NCBI RefSeq assembly: GCF_011300685.1 | Contig: NZ_CP049864.1 | Coordinates: 1-64,000, forward strand | Direction: 5' to 3' | DNA length: 64,000 bases | Origin: Lysobacter sp. HDW10 | GTDB lineage: Bacteria > Pseudomonadota > Gammaproteobacteria > Xanthomonadales > Xanthomonadaceae | Part shown: piece by piece, positions 41,943 to 45,574 of the stretch | Layout: every line of letters starts with the position of its first letter | Position numbering within the stretch: the first letter of the stretch is position 1 | Translations under genes and position numbers: made by a program | The notes under the pieces: model-generated | The model's input: the letters and a program-made list of their open reading frames with translations, nothing else | The model's database searches: none | What the model was told of the DNA's origin: nothing

Positions 41943-41993
41943 TTTGAGAACTGCCACTGCGTAGATTTCAGACGCTTTGAAATGGTCGCTCAA

Positions 41994-42046
41994 TCTGCCG
42001 CCGACCATTTTGTGTGTGGCATCGATGCCCATCGCGACATCCATAA
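41994..42046. repeat. 53-bp copy of an internal asnB segment
   Basis: Matches asnB positions 42963-43015 at 51 of 53 bases in the same orientation, 969 bases away. On the minus strand it still spells DVAMGIDATHKMVGGR, but there is no asnB frame around it. It starts 52 bases after the AP2 gene and ends 8 bases from the stop of the small membrane-protein gene. Confidence 0.92.
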
Positions 42047-42054
42047 TGGTGTTA

Positions 42055-42393
42055 TCACCCTGAAATAGTTGCAATAACCGAACCCAGCAAAGAGCCAATA
42101 GCTACAAGCGCAATTCCGAGGCAATGACGAGCGACTATCGTTTGCCGCCCAGAGAGAAAAACCGTCTTCGCCTTTCTCAATTCGACTCCATCATTCTCGT
42201 CAATGATTTTAGCTGGTCGAAACAAGTAGTTGAACTTCATTGCCGGCGAAAAGTTAAACTCAAATTGATTCCCTTCCTTCAGTGCCGCAGCCTTAACCGC
42301 CATGATTTGCCGCTGAAAATACGCCATGTTTTTTAGTACGTACAGCAATCCTGGTGCCGCCCCGAGAAAGAATCCCCATGCGCCTGCGCTCAT
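42055..42393 (-). CDS. Hypothetical small membrane protein
   Basis: I do not recognise this family. The 112-residue product has a hydrophobic N-terminal segment (GFFLGAAPGLLYVL), a charged middle (FRPAKIIDENDGVELRKAK) and a hydrophobic C-terminal segment (LGIALVAIGSLLGSVIA), so both ends are probably in the membrane. A very good AGAGGAG 8 bases before the ATG supports translation. The region is visibly richer in A/T than its neighbours, suggesting acquisition. It sits between the 53-bp asnB copy and the 3' end of asnB. Confidence 0.65.
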   Translation of the reverse strand: MSAGAWGFFLGAAPGLLYVLKNMAYFQRQIMAVKAAALKEGNQFEFNFSPAMKFNYLFRPAKIIDENDGVELRKAKTVFLSGRQTIVARHCLGIALVAIGSLLGSVIATISG

Positions 42394-42569: not shown

Positions 42570-44258
42570 TCAAGCAGTTGATCTTGAGATGTGCACACTC
42601 TTGACCGCTCGGCCCGAAGGATCCGCACTCGCCGCGAATGCTGCATCCCATGCCAACGCTGCAGGCGATGAACATGCAATCGACTTGCCACCGGGCACCG
42701 TGGCTGCGCACGCGGCAGATGGAAAGACTTGTTCGAAGAGTGATCGGTAGAGATAAGCCTCTTTGCTGGCGGGCGTGTTCAACGGGAATCGAACGGCCGC
42801 GGTCACGAATTGCATATCGCTGACGACGGATTCGGCGTGCGCCTTCAAGCCATCGATCCAGCCATAGCCGACGCCGTCACTGAACTGTTCCTTTTGACGC
42901 CATAGGATTTCATCCGGCAGGACCCCTTTGAATGCCTCGCGCAGAATGTGCTTTTCGATGCGTCTGCCACCGACCATTTTGTGTGTGGCATCGATGCCCA
43001 TCGCTACATCCATAAAAGCGGGATCCAGGAACGGTACACGCGGTTCAACGCCCCAAGCCATCATGGATTTGTTGGCACGCAGGCAATCGAACTGGTGCAG
43101 CGCATCCAACTTACGAACCAATTCCTCGTGGAAGCTTTGCGCGTCCGGTGCCTTGTGGAAATAAAGGTAGCCGCCGAACAGTTCATCGCTGCCCTCGCCC
43201 GACAGCACCATCTTCACACCCATGGATTTAATCCGACGTGCTAACAGAAACATCGGCGTTGAGGCACGCACCGTGGTGACGTCAAAGGTCTCGATGTGAC
43301 GTATCACATCGGGCAATGCATCCAAACCTTCTTCCAAGGTGAAGGTGAAACCGTGGTGCACGGAATCGATCGCGCGCGCAGCGACTTCGGCCGCTGCAAG
43401 ATCGGGGGAACCTTCAAGTCCGATCGCAAAGGAGTGCACGCGCGGCCACCATGCCTCACTGGCGTCACCGTCGTCTACGCGCTTCCGTGCGAATCGTGCC
43501 GCGCACGCGGCAATGATCGAAGAGTCAAGGCCGCCGGACAGCAAGACGCCATAAGGCACGTCGCCCATCAATTGACGATGTACCGCGGATTCCAAGGCTT
43601 CACGAATCTCTTCGGGTGTCGCGTCTTGTCCAGCGACGTCCGCATGGGTTCGCCATGTCGGTGCATACCATGCAGTGAGTTCGCCGGTTTGCGTATCGAA
43701 CACATGACCGGGCGGAAATTGACTGACATCCGCGCACATGCGGGCGATGGCTTTCATTTCAGACGCAACCCATAGGCGACCATCCACATCGTGTCCCCAG
43801 TACAAGGGGCAGATGCCCATGTGGTCACGCGAGATCAGCGCACGCTTTCGTGCCGCATCCCACAACACGAATGCAAACATGCCGTTTAAGCGTTTCAACC
43901 AATCGGACGGGTCCCCCTCTGGCTCACGCGCATAGAGGGCGTTGATCACTTCGCAATCTGATCCCGTTTGAAACGCATAGGTCGACGCAAGGGGGGCGCG
44001 GAATTTCATGTGGTTGTAGATCTCTCCGTTCACGGCGAGTGCAAGCTGTCCGTCTTTTGAACGCAAAGGCTGCGCGCCACCTGCCGGATCGACGATGGAC
44101 AGGCGCTCATGCACCAACAGCGCATTCGGATGTTCATACACACCACTCCAGTCCGGACCACGGTGCCGCTGCATGGCGGATAAGGCGATCGCTGACGGCC
44201 TCAAGATGGAGACATCTGCGCGTTCACGCAGGTCGATGACGGAAAGGATGGAACACAT
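42570..44258 (-). CDS. asnB: Asparagine synthetase B (glutamine-hydrolysing)
   Basis: Makes asparagine from aspartate, glutamine and ATP. From the ATG at 44258 (GGAG 7 bases before it) the 562-residue protein begins MCSIL, so Cys becomes the N-terminal nucleophile of the glutaminase domain after Met removal. RHRGPDWSG and AVNGEIYNH belong to that domain. The synthetase half has LLSGGLDSSIIA, the PP-loop, near residue 235, and ends VPGGKSIACSS...DPSGRAV as in E. coli AsnB. It is preceded by a leader peptide rich in Asn codons and a terminator. Confidence 0.97.
   Translation of the reverse strand: MCSILSVIDLRERADVSILRPSAIALSAMQRHRGPDWSGVYEHPNALLVHERLSIVDPAGGAQPLRSKDGQLALAVNGEIYNHMKFRAPLASTYAFQTGSDCEVINALYAREPEGDPSDWLKRLNGMFAFVLWDAARKRALISRDHMGICPLYWGHDVDGRLWVASEMKAIARMCADVSQFPPGHVFDTQTGELTAWYAPTWRTHADVAGQDATPEEIREALESAVHRQLMGDVPYGVLLSGGLDSSIIAACAARFARKRVDDGDASEAWWPRVHSFAIGLEGSPDLAAAEVAARAIDSVHHGFTFTLEEGLDALPDVIRHIETFDVTTVRASTPMFLLARRIKSMGVKMVLSGEGSDELFGGYLYFHKAPDAQSFHEELVRKLDALHQFDCLRANKSMMAWGVEPRVPFLDPAFMDVAMGIDATHKMVGGRRIEKHILREAFKGVLPDEILWRQKEQFSDGVGYGWIDGLKAHAESVVSDMQFVTAAVRFPLNTPASKEAYLYRSLFEQVFPSAACAATVPGGKSIACSSPAALAWDAAFAASADPSGRAVKSVHISRSTA
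42963..43015. repeat. Parent copy of the 53-bp repeat, inside asnB
   Basis: Encodes asnB residues about 415-432 (DVAMGIDATHKMVGGR region). Two of 53 bases differ from the copy at 41994-42046. Confidence 0.92.
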
Positions 44259-44290
44259 GTCGAACTCCAATTGGGTAAATCGTGGGCAAT

Positions 44291-44319
44291 AAAAAAGCCC
44301 GCTTTTTCAAGCGGGCTTC
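44291..44319 (-). terminator. Terminator/attenuator hairpin before asnB
   Basis: On the minus strand, AAGCCCGCTT (44318-44309) and AAGCGGGCTT (44304-44295) form a perfect 10-bp stem with a GAAA tetraloop followed by TTTTATT. It ends 32 bases before the asnB ATG and starts 28 bases after the leader-peptide stop. AGCGGG inside the leader (44363-44358) can pair with CCCGCT of the first arm and would prevent the hairpin. It could also simply end the dapE transcript. Confidence 0.85.
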
Positions 44320-44346
44320 GGATAGGCGTTTGTCGAATTTCGTGCG

Positions 44347-44418
44347 CTAACCGTCGTCCCGCTGTTGGCAGGCATTATTGTTATTGCGATTGACGGTGGT
44401 GGCGGAAATGCGGTTCAT
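44347..44418 (-). CDS. Putative Asn-rich leader peptide of asnB
   Basis: A 23-codon reading frame from ATG 44418 to TAG 44347 on the asnB strand. It starts MNRISATTVNRNNNN and ends ACQQRDDG. Six of 23 codons are Asn, five of them within six consecutive codons (44391-44374: AAT CGC AAT AAC AAT AAT). It begins 19 bases after the dapE stop and is followed by a terminator just before asnB. This is the layout of his, thr and leu attenuators, with the end product of the regulated enzyme as the tested amino acid. The Shine-Dalgarno sequence is weak (CAGGG 13 bases upstream), and I saw no clear promoter of its own. Confidence 0.72.
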   Translation of the reverse strand: MNRISATTVNRNNNNACQQRDDG

Positions 44419-44437
44419 GGCTTGAGTGTGCCCTGCT

Positions 44438-45574
44438 TCATTCCGGTTTGACAAGTAGTTTCTGCATCAGTGACACAAAAATAGTTGGCAGCTTGTTCAA
44501 ATCTGAAACAAGGACGTTTTCGTCAACTTTATGAATACTGGCATTGACCGGGCCAATTTCCACGCAGTGGGCACCCATGGGGGCAATAAATCGTGCGTCG
44601 GAGGTGCCACCCCCCGTGCTTTCTTCCGGCGGCTGGCCCGTGAAGGTCGTCAGCACCTCGCGGCAAGCAACGCGTAAAGGCCCTTCCGGCGTGTAGAACG
44701 GTGCGCCACTTTGATGCCAGTGAATGTCGAAACGCACTAGATGTGCGTTGAGAATCTTCTCGCACTCGGATTGAAGTTGCTCCGCTGTCCAGTTCGGGTT
44801 GTAGCGCAGATTGAACAACACATCCAACTGCCCCGGAATCACATTGTTTGCGCCATTGCCGGCATGTGTATCGGTGATTTGCAAACTGGTCGGCGGAAAC
44901 GATTCGTAGCCGTCATCCCAGACTTTGGACGACAACGCCGCAAGTGCGGGCAATGCACGATGGACGGGGTTATCGGCTTTCTCAGGATAGGCGACATGAC
45001 CTTGCACACCGTCGACGCGCAGCTTTGCCGACAATGAGCCGCGTCGGCCCACACGTAACAAGTCACCTAAGCTGTTCTTGGATGAAGGTTCGCCCGTGAT
45101 GCAGTAGTCGATGCGCTGCCCACGTGCCTTAAACGTCTCAACGACTTTGCGAACGCCATTGATGGCCGCGCCCTCTTCATCGGAGGTGAGCAACAGGGCC
45201 ACCGTGCCAGCGTGGTCCGGGTGCTCCGTAACAAATTGCCTCAGTGCCACGACGAATGCAGCCACACTGCCCTTCATATCTGCAGCACCGCGTCCATACA
45301 ACACGCCGTCGCGAATGACGGGCTCAAACGGATCTGACGTCCAATCTTCTAGTGGCCCGGGGGGCACCACATCGGTATGCCCTAGAAATACCAGCACCGG
45401 CCCGTCACGCCCGTGCGTCGCCCACAAGTTATCGACGTCGCCGAAGCGCATGTGTTCACAGCTGAAGCCAGCGTCGCTCAATTGCGTCGCCAATAAGTGC
45501 TGGCAACCCAAATCGTCCGGTGTGATGGAAGGACGCGATATGAGCGCTTGCGTCAGTGCGAGGACGTCGGTCAT
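44438..45574 (-). CDS. dapE: Succinyl-diaminopimelate desuccinylase
   Basis: Zinc enzyme of lysine/diaminopimelate synthesis (M20 family). The 378-residue protein has the first metal His in [12 protein letters not shown] near residue 67, the shared Asp in [14 protein letters not shown] near residue 100, and the catalytic Glu pair in [14 protein letters not shown]-terminal metal His is in [14 protein letters not shown]. It overlaps yffB by 4 bases. The Asn-rich leader of asnB begins 19 bases after its stop. Confidence 0.96.

Follow-up and report, generated by a model that had tools for sequence, protein, structure and literature searches.

In the his, thr, leu, trp and phe attenuators, a short frame rich in codons for the cognate amino acid stands before a biosynthetic gene, and an antiterminator competes with an intrinsic terminator. 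In known attenuators, the antiterminator helix between strands 2 and 3 (2:3) forms before strand 4 is transcribed. T-box control of asparagine genes in Firmicutes senses the charging of tRNA-Asn through an RNA that binds the tRNA directly, with no leader frame. A 2004 abstract by Vitreschak reportedly covers attenuators for branched-chain amino acids, His, Thr, Trp and Phe.

Among described leaders, the attenuator RNA of Sinorhizobium meliloti trpL (rnTrpL) is reported to start with the ATG of the leader frame and to be a leaderless mRNA (PMC7298713). According to the title of Morbach 2000, as given in PMC10272879, the ilvBNC leader peptide of Corynebacterium glutamicum is made in the absence of a ribosome binding site. 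In Rhodobacterales, the cysS uORF candidate uORFC-8-2 carries cognate codons, and ribosome stalling leading to read-through has been proposed for it (PMC8632094). The words "asn" and "asparagine" do not occur in the main text of that study, and the main text of PMC2965389 names no asparagine leader. The portions of PMC1183508 and PMC3568101 covered by our search respectively discuss leader codon bias, with Asn not included, and treat AsnB inserts only. Our literature search, whose coverage stopped short of Vitreschak 2004 and Lopatovskaya 2010, returned no description of an asnB leader-peptide attenuator, and any novelty of the leader reported here is limited to the literature searched.

Here we investigated a leader frame upstream of asnB in the window (the whole stretch of DNA analysed, 64,000 nucleotides). 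Judged from its sequence and that of its relatives, it is very probably a transcription attenuator of asnB that is ribosome-mediated and specific for Asn, with its leader peptide translated from a leaderless mRNA. It is like the his, thr, leu, trp and phe attenuators in its short cognate-codon frame, competing antiterminator and terminator, but unlike them in its Asn codons, its lack of a Shine-Dalgarno sequence and a promoter that abuts the ATG. With S. meliloti trpL it would share a leaderless start, predicted in the case of asnB, whereas trpL concerns Trp in an alphaproteobacterium. The C. glutamicum ilvBNC leader differs in serving branched-chain amino acids in Actinobacteria. The candidate uORFC-8-2 was likewise a comparative-genomics find with cognate-amino-acid codons, but involves Cys, a tRNA synthetase gene and alphaproteobacteria. 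Charging of tRNA-Asn is sensed by the T-box and, as proposed here, by the asnB leader, although the T-box does so without a leader frame.

An Asn-rich frame and a terminator lie between dapE and asnB

The original prediction described a 23-codon frame with six Asn codons, five of them within six consecutive codons, followed by a perfect 10-bp GAAA hairpin with a T run that ends 32 bases before the asnB start. Its coordinates for the frame, the terminator and asnB proved exact, a recount gave the same Asn codons, and the hairpin was as described. The features of the locus, all on the minus strand, are as follows.

44438-45574 (-): dapE, the upstream neighbour, its name taken from the original prediction, which used the sequence alone
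44449-44454 (-): -35 element TTGTCA, which falls within the 3' end of dapE
44425-44430 (-): -10 element CACACT, after an 18-nt spacer, ending 6 nt before the leader ATG and weak on its own
44418 (-): predicted transcription start, the A of the leader ATG, placed by spacing
44347-44418 (-): leader peptide frame MNRISATTVNRNNNNACQQRDDG, 23 codons, stop TAG
44374-44391 (-): putative regulatory Asn codons, five in six codons, from the sequence and its relatives
44368-44372 (-): strand 1 (CCTGC), a possible, weak protector pairing with GCGGG at 44362-44358
44344-44363 (-): strand 2 of the antiterminator, with the core AGCGGG (44363-44358) and an extension that includes the stop codon
44310-44327 (-): strand 3 of the antiterminator, overlapping the 5' arm of the terminator
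44291-44318 (-): intrinsic terminator (strands 3:4), 10-bp stem, GAAA loop and T run
44265-44268 (-): GGAG, the Shine-Dalgarno sequence of asnB, in contrast to the leader
42570-44258 (-): asnB, glutamine-hydrolysing asparagine synthase B (NF006949, PF00733)

Read along the minus strand, the stop codon of dapE (44440-44438) is followed 19 nt later by the leader (44418-44347; ATG at 44418-44416, TAG at 44349-44347), then by the terminator (44318-44291) and, after 32 bases, by the asnB ATG at 44258. The six Asn codons are AAC at 44415-44413 and the run AAT 44391, (CGC), AAT 44385, AAC 44382, AAT 44379 and AAT 44376. The terminator consists of the stem AAGCCCGCTT (44318-44309), the GAAA loop (44308-44305), the second arm AAGCGGGCTT (44304-44295) and a T run (44296-44291). 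The asnB product matched NF006949 at 810.6 bits (cut-off 499) and also PF00733; the AsnB protein queries were missing their first four residues. Just downstream of asnB, a piece at 41982-42056 (-) matches residues 408-433 of the AsnB query at 76% identity (E = 1.1e-4) and is possibly a duplication remnant.

No Rfam leader model reached its gathering score over the leader region of the window. Leu_leader (RF00512; E = 0.006, 23.7 bits vs a gathering score of 50, spanning the whole leader) and Trp_leader (RF00513; E = 0.005, 24.4 bits vs 41) were among 13 weak Rfam matches, most of them chance. A riboswitch or T-box was likewise rejected as a candidate, as the only Rfam match at gathering score in the window was a tRNA, and the loci of five relatives gave none. 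Searches with four leader peptides, that of the window queried without its Met, matched no Pfam or NCBIfam family at E ≤ 10.

Asn-rich leader frames accompany asnB in related families

We compared the upstream regions of asnB among relatives, using the best 80 of 585 confirmed matches from one scan together with further loci from other searches. Five exact duplicates were removed, as was L079, whose upstream DNA was too short, and two loci (L023, L028) were replaced by new stretches of the same genomes, which left 115 distinct regions. A leader was called where an ATG frame of 12-60 codons held at least three Asn in 8 codons, and 100 of the 115 regions contained one. A further region (L081) was masked with N and went uncounted, with Asn codons in its visible part. 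The original prediction would have been contradicted by relatives that keep the terminator without the frame or its Asn run; instead, frame and terminator were kept together in 100 of the 115. As all loci were found through asnB, the association with asnB is no independent test.

The Asn frame was missing in 14 of the 115 regions. One of these belongs to the window's family and has an asnB 69% identical (L027), two come from records named Rhodococcus and Prescottella (L069, L080), and one from a Planctomycetota MAG (L109). The other ten (L111-L120), with asnB 59-67% identical, comprise two members of the window's family and eight of other families in the order. A second set of 42 loci, in which Asn count and promoter were used jointly to select the frame and which may share species with the first set, gave 24 with the frame and an adjacent promoter, one with the frame only (L159) and 17 without the frame. 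Thus, within families f1, f2 and f12, the loci examined show the leader together with an asnB closer to that of the window (exception L027), and most loci of other families are without it. Leader-bearing genera include Xanthomonas, Stenotrophomonas, Lysobacter, Luteimonas, Pseudoxanthomonas, Thermomonas, Dyella and Rhodanobacter. Between clades, the leader peptides are hardly alike outside the Asn cluster, and what is kept despite this drift is the Asn cluster, the antiterminator strand and the terminator.

The exception among the other families, L159 (f7; genome G113), has a separate-looking Asn leader MFAIYNTINTTNNRLLRSAGSF before asnB, with the elements TTGACA-17-GATAGT, a AAGCCCGCTT/AAGCGGGCTT terminator and an ATG about 25 nt past the -10-like element. 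Other examined loci of its family have no such frame. Outside the order, two samplings of the class turned up a similar asnB in 2 of 369 and 3 of 274 genomes (one genome in both samples). The upstream regions from these four genomes held no ATG, GTG or TTG frame with at least four Asn in 8 codons; one has three.

To gauge chance occurrence, we counted runs of four Asn codons in the 2.18-Mb genome. There were 12. The one in the window's leader sits in a short frame with a terminator behind it, and the frames that hold the remaining 11 have 127-1003 codons. Markov-shuffled upstream regions gave an ATG frame with at least three Asn in 8 codons in 25 of 2000 cases and with at least four in 1 of 2000, compared with at least four in 95 of the 100 real loci, themselves preselected from the 115 for at least three. 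Outside the window, at G000:C1 496294-498636, seven four-Asn-codon runs, mostly 336 bases apart, lie in open frames of about 1000 codons within the stretch analysed, a repetitive Asn-bearing protein. Among leader Asn codons, AAU makes up 301 of 624 (48%) vs 71 of 648 (11%) in asnB of the named loci. Five genes of the window use AAU for 26 of 63 Asn codons (41%), so the AAU bias of leaders is not special in the window's own genome; the bias in relatives is unexplained.

The terminator is kept without dapE upstream

A terminator scan called the window's hairpin (two found in 501 bases, 0.7 expected), and a terminator-like hairpin with a T-rich tail followed the frame in all 100 leader loci. Tails were T-poor in several (e.g. 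L018, L034, L036), and the hairpin pick of L122 was poor. The hairpin was sought after the frame, and the order is therefore by construction; the promoter and the Asn cluster were found independently of it.

A perfect hairpin with a T run between dapE and asnB could also be the ordinary terminator of the upstream gene, with an Asn frame arising by chance and asnB transcribed from its own downstream start, and the original prediction had cautioned that it might double as the dapE terminator. In general this fails. A dapE gene lies upstream in 29 of 97 loci. In the remaining 68, the 600 nt ahead of asnB gave no dapE match, yet the frame and the hairpin are there, on which ground we rejected a dapE terminator as a general explanation. 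Taken with the independent finding of the promoter and the Asn cluster, this makes an ordinary terminator beside a chance frame scarcely credible.

Promoter elements adjoin the leader start codon

When upstream regions were anchored on the leader ATG without shifting, position -35 carried 1.43 bits and was the best-conserved column more than 2 nt upstream of the ATG; -36 carried 0.9 bits, and positions -15 to -7 were also raised. At the -35 place, 99 of the 100 loci had TTG and 93 had TTGC. In the -10 hexamer, T occupied position 6 in all 100 and A position 2 in 77. The scoring restricted the -10-to-ATG distance to 5-8 nt and the spacer to 16-19 nt; within these limits, distances of 6, 7 and 8 nt were found in 61, 37 and 2 loci and spacers of 17, 18 and 19 nt in 57, 42 and 1 (n = 100). 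A promoter score of at least 13 was reached by 95 of the 100 leader ATGs vs 2.4% of 381 other ATGs. In 32 of the 100 loci, which have several in-frame ATGs, the leader ATG had itself been selected by promoter score; among the 68 loci with a single candidate ATG, 64 scored at least 13 and all 68 had TTG.

An SD-like motif precedes asnB in 98 of the 100 loci and the leader in 21, counting 14 -10 hexamers (CAGGAT or TAGGAT) that themselves contain AGGA. With a promoter this close to the leader ATG, the mRNA is predicted to be leaderless; its start site and leaderless translation are deduced from sequence. The poor Shine-Dalgarno sequence, listed as a weak point in the original prediction, is thereby accounted for across the 100 loci: the leader would lack one because the promoter adjoins its ATG. 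A second weak point, the want of a dedicated promoter, was largely answered. The TTG and -10 boxes recur across relatives, but the window's own -10 (CACACT) is poor, and a scan with a fixed consensus failed to pick it up.

The same attenuator might work with a leader that is weakly translated from longer transcripts, arising by read-through from dapE or from an upstream start. The dapE stop lies so near the leader ATG, with no terminator called between them, that such transcripts are conceivable, and the L159 ATG at about 25 nt from its -10-like element suits a leader with a 5' extension. However, the 64 of 68 single-ATG loci place their promoter boxes at leaderless distance, though dapE is upstream in 29 of 97, and 79 of the 100 loci are missing an SD-like motif before the leader. 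We therefore regard translation from longer transcripts as unlikely and continue with the leaderless attenuator.

Strands 2 and 3 co-vary as a predicted antiterminator

AGCGGG at 44363-44358 is, as the original prediction stated, complementary to CCCGCT at 44315-44310 in the terminator arm. Across the 100 loci, strand 2 paired with its own terminator arm at a mean of -18.3 kcal/mol vs -15.7 kcal/mol when partners were permuted (0 of 2000 permutations; relatedness ignored), and in 55 of the 100 the pairing fell within the best 5% of same-strand shuffles. A second, inner helix starts just past the core, spans the stop codon and reaches as far as the bases preceding strand 3. It averaged -11.5 vs -8.9 kcal/mol permuted (0 of 2000; 99 loci; relatedness ignored), and was within the best 5% of shuffles in 46 of 99 loci.

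In a position-wise analysis of the core, where strand 2 was placed by best complementarity, five core positions paired in 95-99 of 99 loci (L122 left out). At one position, seven of the 99 loci carry C>T in strand 3; strand 2 has A in all seven, and strand 4 still has G in six. These seven may represent few evolutionary events. When the strand 2-to-3 stretch was folded, the 2:3 core pair formed in 88 of 99 loci.

Co-variation of strands 2 and 3 also bears on another reading, in which the frame encodes a trans-acting small protein, or the terminated leader RNA acts as an sRNA, and asnB is not attenuated. Trans roles have been reported for the RNA and the peptide of the S. meliloti trpL attenuator (PMC7298713). 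Here, however, the co-variation involves the terminator, and the peptides have little in common between clades beyond their Asn. A purely trans role is hence very improbable, and we return to attenuation of asnB.

In the window, the antiterminator folds at -20.1 vs -19.1 kcal/mol for the full terminator. The antiterminator was the more stable in 46 of 99 loci, and within 3 kcal/mol or better in 70; mean energies over the 99 were -21.4 kcal/mol for the antiterminator and -22.5 for the full terminator. The concern that only 6 bp of antiterminator pairing exist was largely relieved, as the pairing is longer and includes a second helix, but it outweighs the terminator in only 46 of the 99. Once strand 4 was included, the terminator fold won in all examples inspected (ten, and two in a later comparison), and therefore the switch must be kinetic.

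RNAalifold found no useful structure when given all 100 segments. When segments were sorted by peptide ending into three clades, each with 22 distinct ones, the chosen pairing differed between clades: 1:2, with paired changes, in the Lysobacter-like clade, 2:3 in the Rhodanobacter-like clade, and neither in the Xanthomonas-like clade. The region of the 1:2 protector hairpin was no more stable than shuffles (100 loci, mean z = -0.02).

A model for asparagine-responsive read-through into asnB

The hallmarks of an attenuator can be followed through the set. In 100 of 115 loci, asnB is preceded by a short frame (translation predicted) with a cluster of codons for its product, Asn; an intrinsic terminator stands between frame and asnB in 100 of 100 (some with weak tails), and the antiterminator is exclusive with the terminator and overlaps the end of the frame. 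Support for the interpretation first offered in the original prediction thus comes from the relatives, the co-varying antiterminator and the adjacent promoter.

Comparison of the loci brought out the frame, its Asn cluster, the adjacent promoter, the terminator and the co-varying strands 2 and 3; from these we infer the start site, leaderless translation, stalling and read-through. The first transcribed nucleotide would be the A of the leader ATG, and the nascent RNA would take up a ribosome at its bare 5' end. With charged tRNA-Asn plentiful, the ribosome would reach the stop codon and mask strand 2, and the 3:4 terminator would end transcription before asnB. With charged tRNA-Asn scarce, the ribosome would stall in the Asn run; on the last Asn codon it would come into contact with the beginning of strand 2. 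That strand (AGCGGG and the stop-codon stretch) could then pair with strand 3 before strand 4 exists, and polymerase would read through into asnB.

We somewhat favor the view that these leaders form a distinct attenuator class, an Asn-sensing leaderless switch that already existed before the window's family and two related families of its order diverged. In this class, promoter, start codon, Asn sensor and stop-codon-spanning antiterminator would be fused, within about 160 nt in the window, and loading of the ribosome on the raw 5' end would be the first regulatory step, a proposal we hold with the same modest preference. The age of the switch is read from its distribution only, which transfer could also have produced. 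If the attenuator is real, leader-peptide attenuation in proteobacteria extends to the sensing of asparagine and can operate on leaderless mRNA in gammaproteobacteria, where a leaderless start would set the polymerase-to-ribosome distance from the first nucleotide. With Xanthomonas, Stenotrophomonas, Lysobacter and Dyella among the relatives, a regulatory peptide would precede asnB in many studied genomes.

The window's genome has asnS over the cut-off and no match to gatA or asnA; therefore charged tRNA-Asn should track free asparagine, which would close the regulatory loop. Among 36 genomes, gatA was over the cut-off in none (weaker matches in 26) and asnS in 35, which left no contrast for an attenuator tied to the indirect tRNA route, and this candidate was dropped. 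Five genomes that are 99-100% complete, four of the window's genus (G001, G006, G010, G012) and one of its family (G146), have asnS, no asnB over the cut-off, no asnA match and gatA below the cut-off (weaker matches in G010 and G146). These are predicted to be asparagine auxotrophs.

As a comparison, we looked for His leaders before hisG and found one in 22 loci, in another family. This leader, MNINLIALHHHHHHFIMDGAC (L218, + strand, 1332), comes from a family distant within the order and lies close to hisG. Upstream it has TTGACA and, 7 nt ahead of its ATG, a TACTAT resembling a -10 box; it is perhaps another leaderless attenuator.
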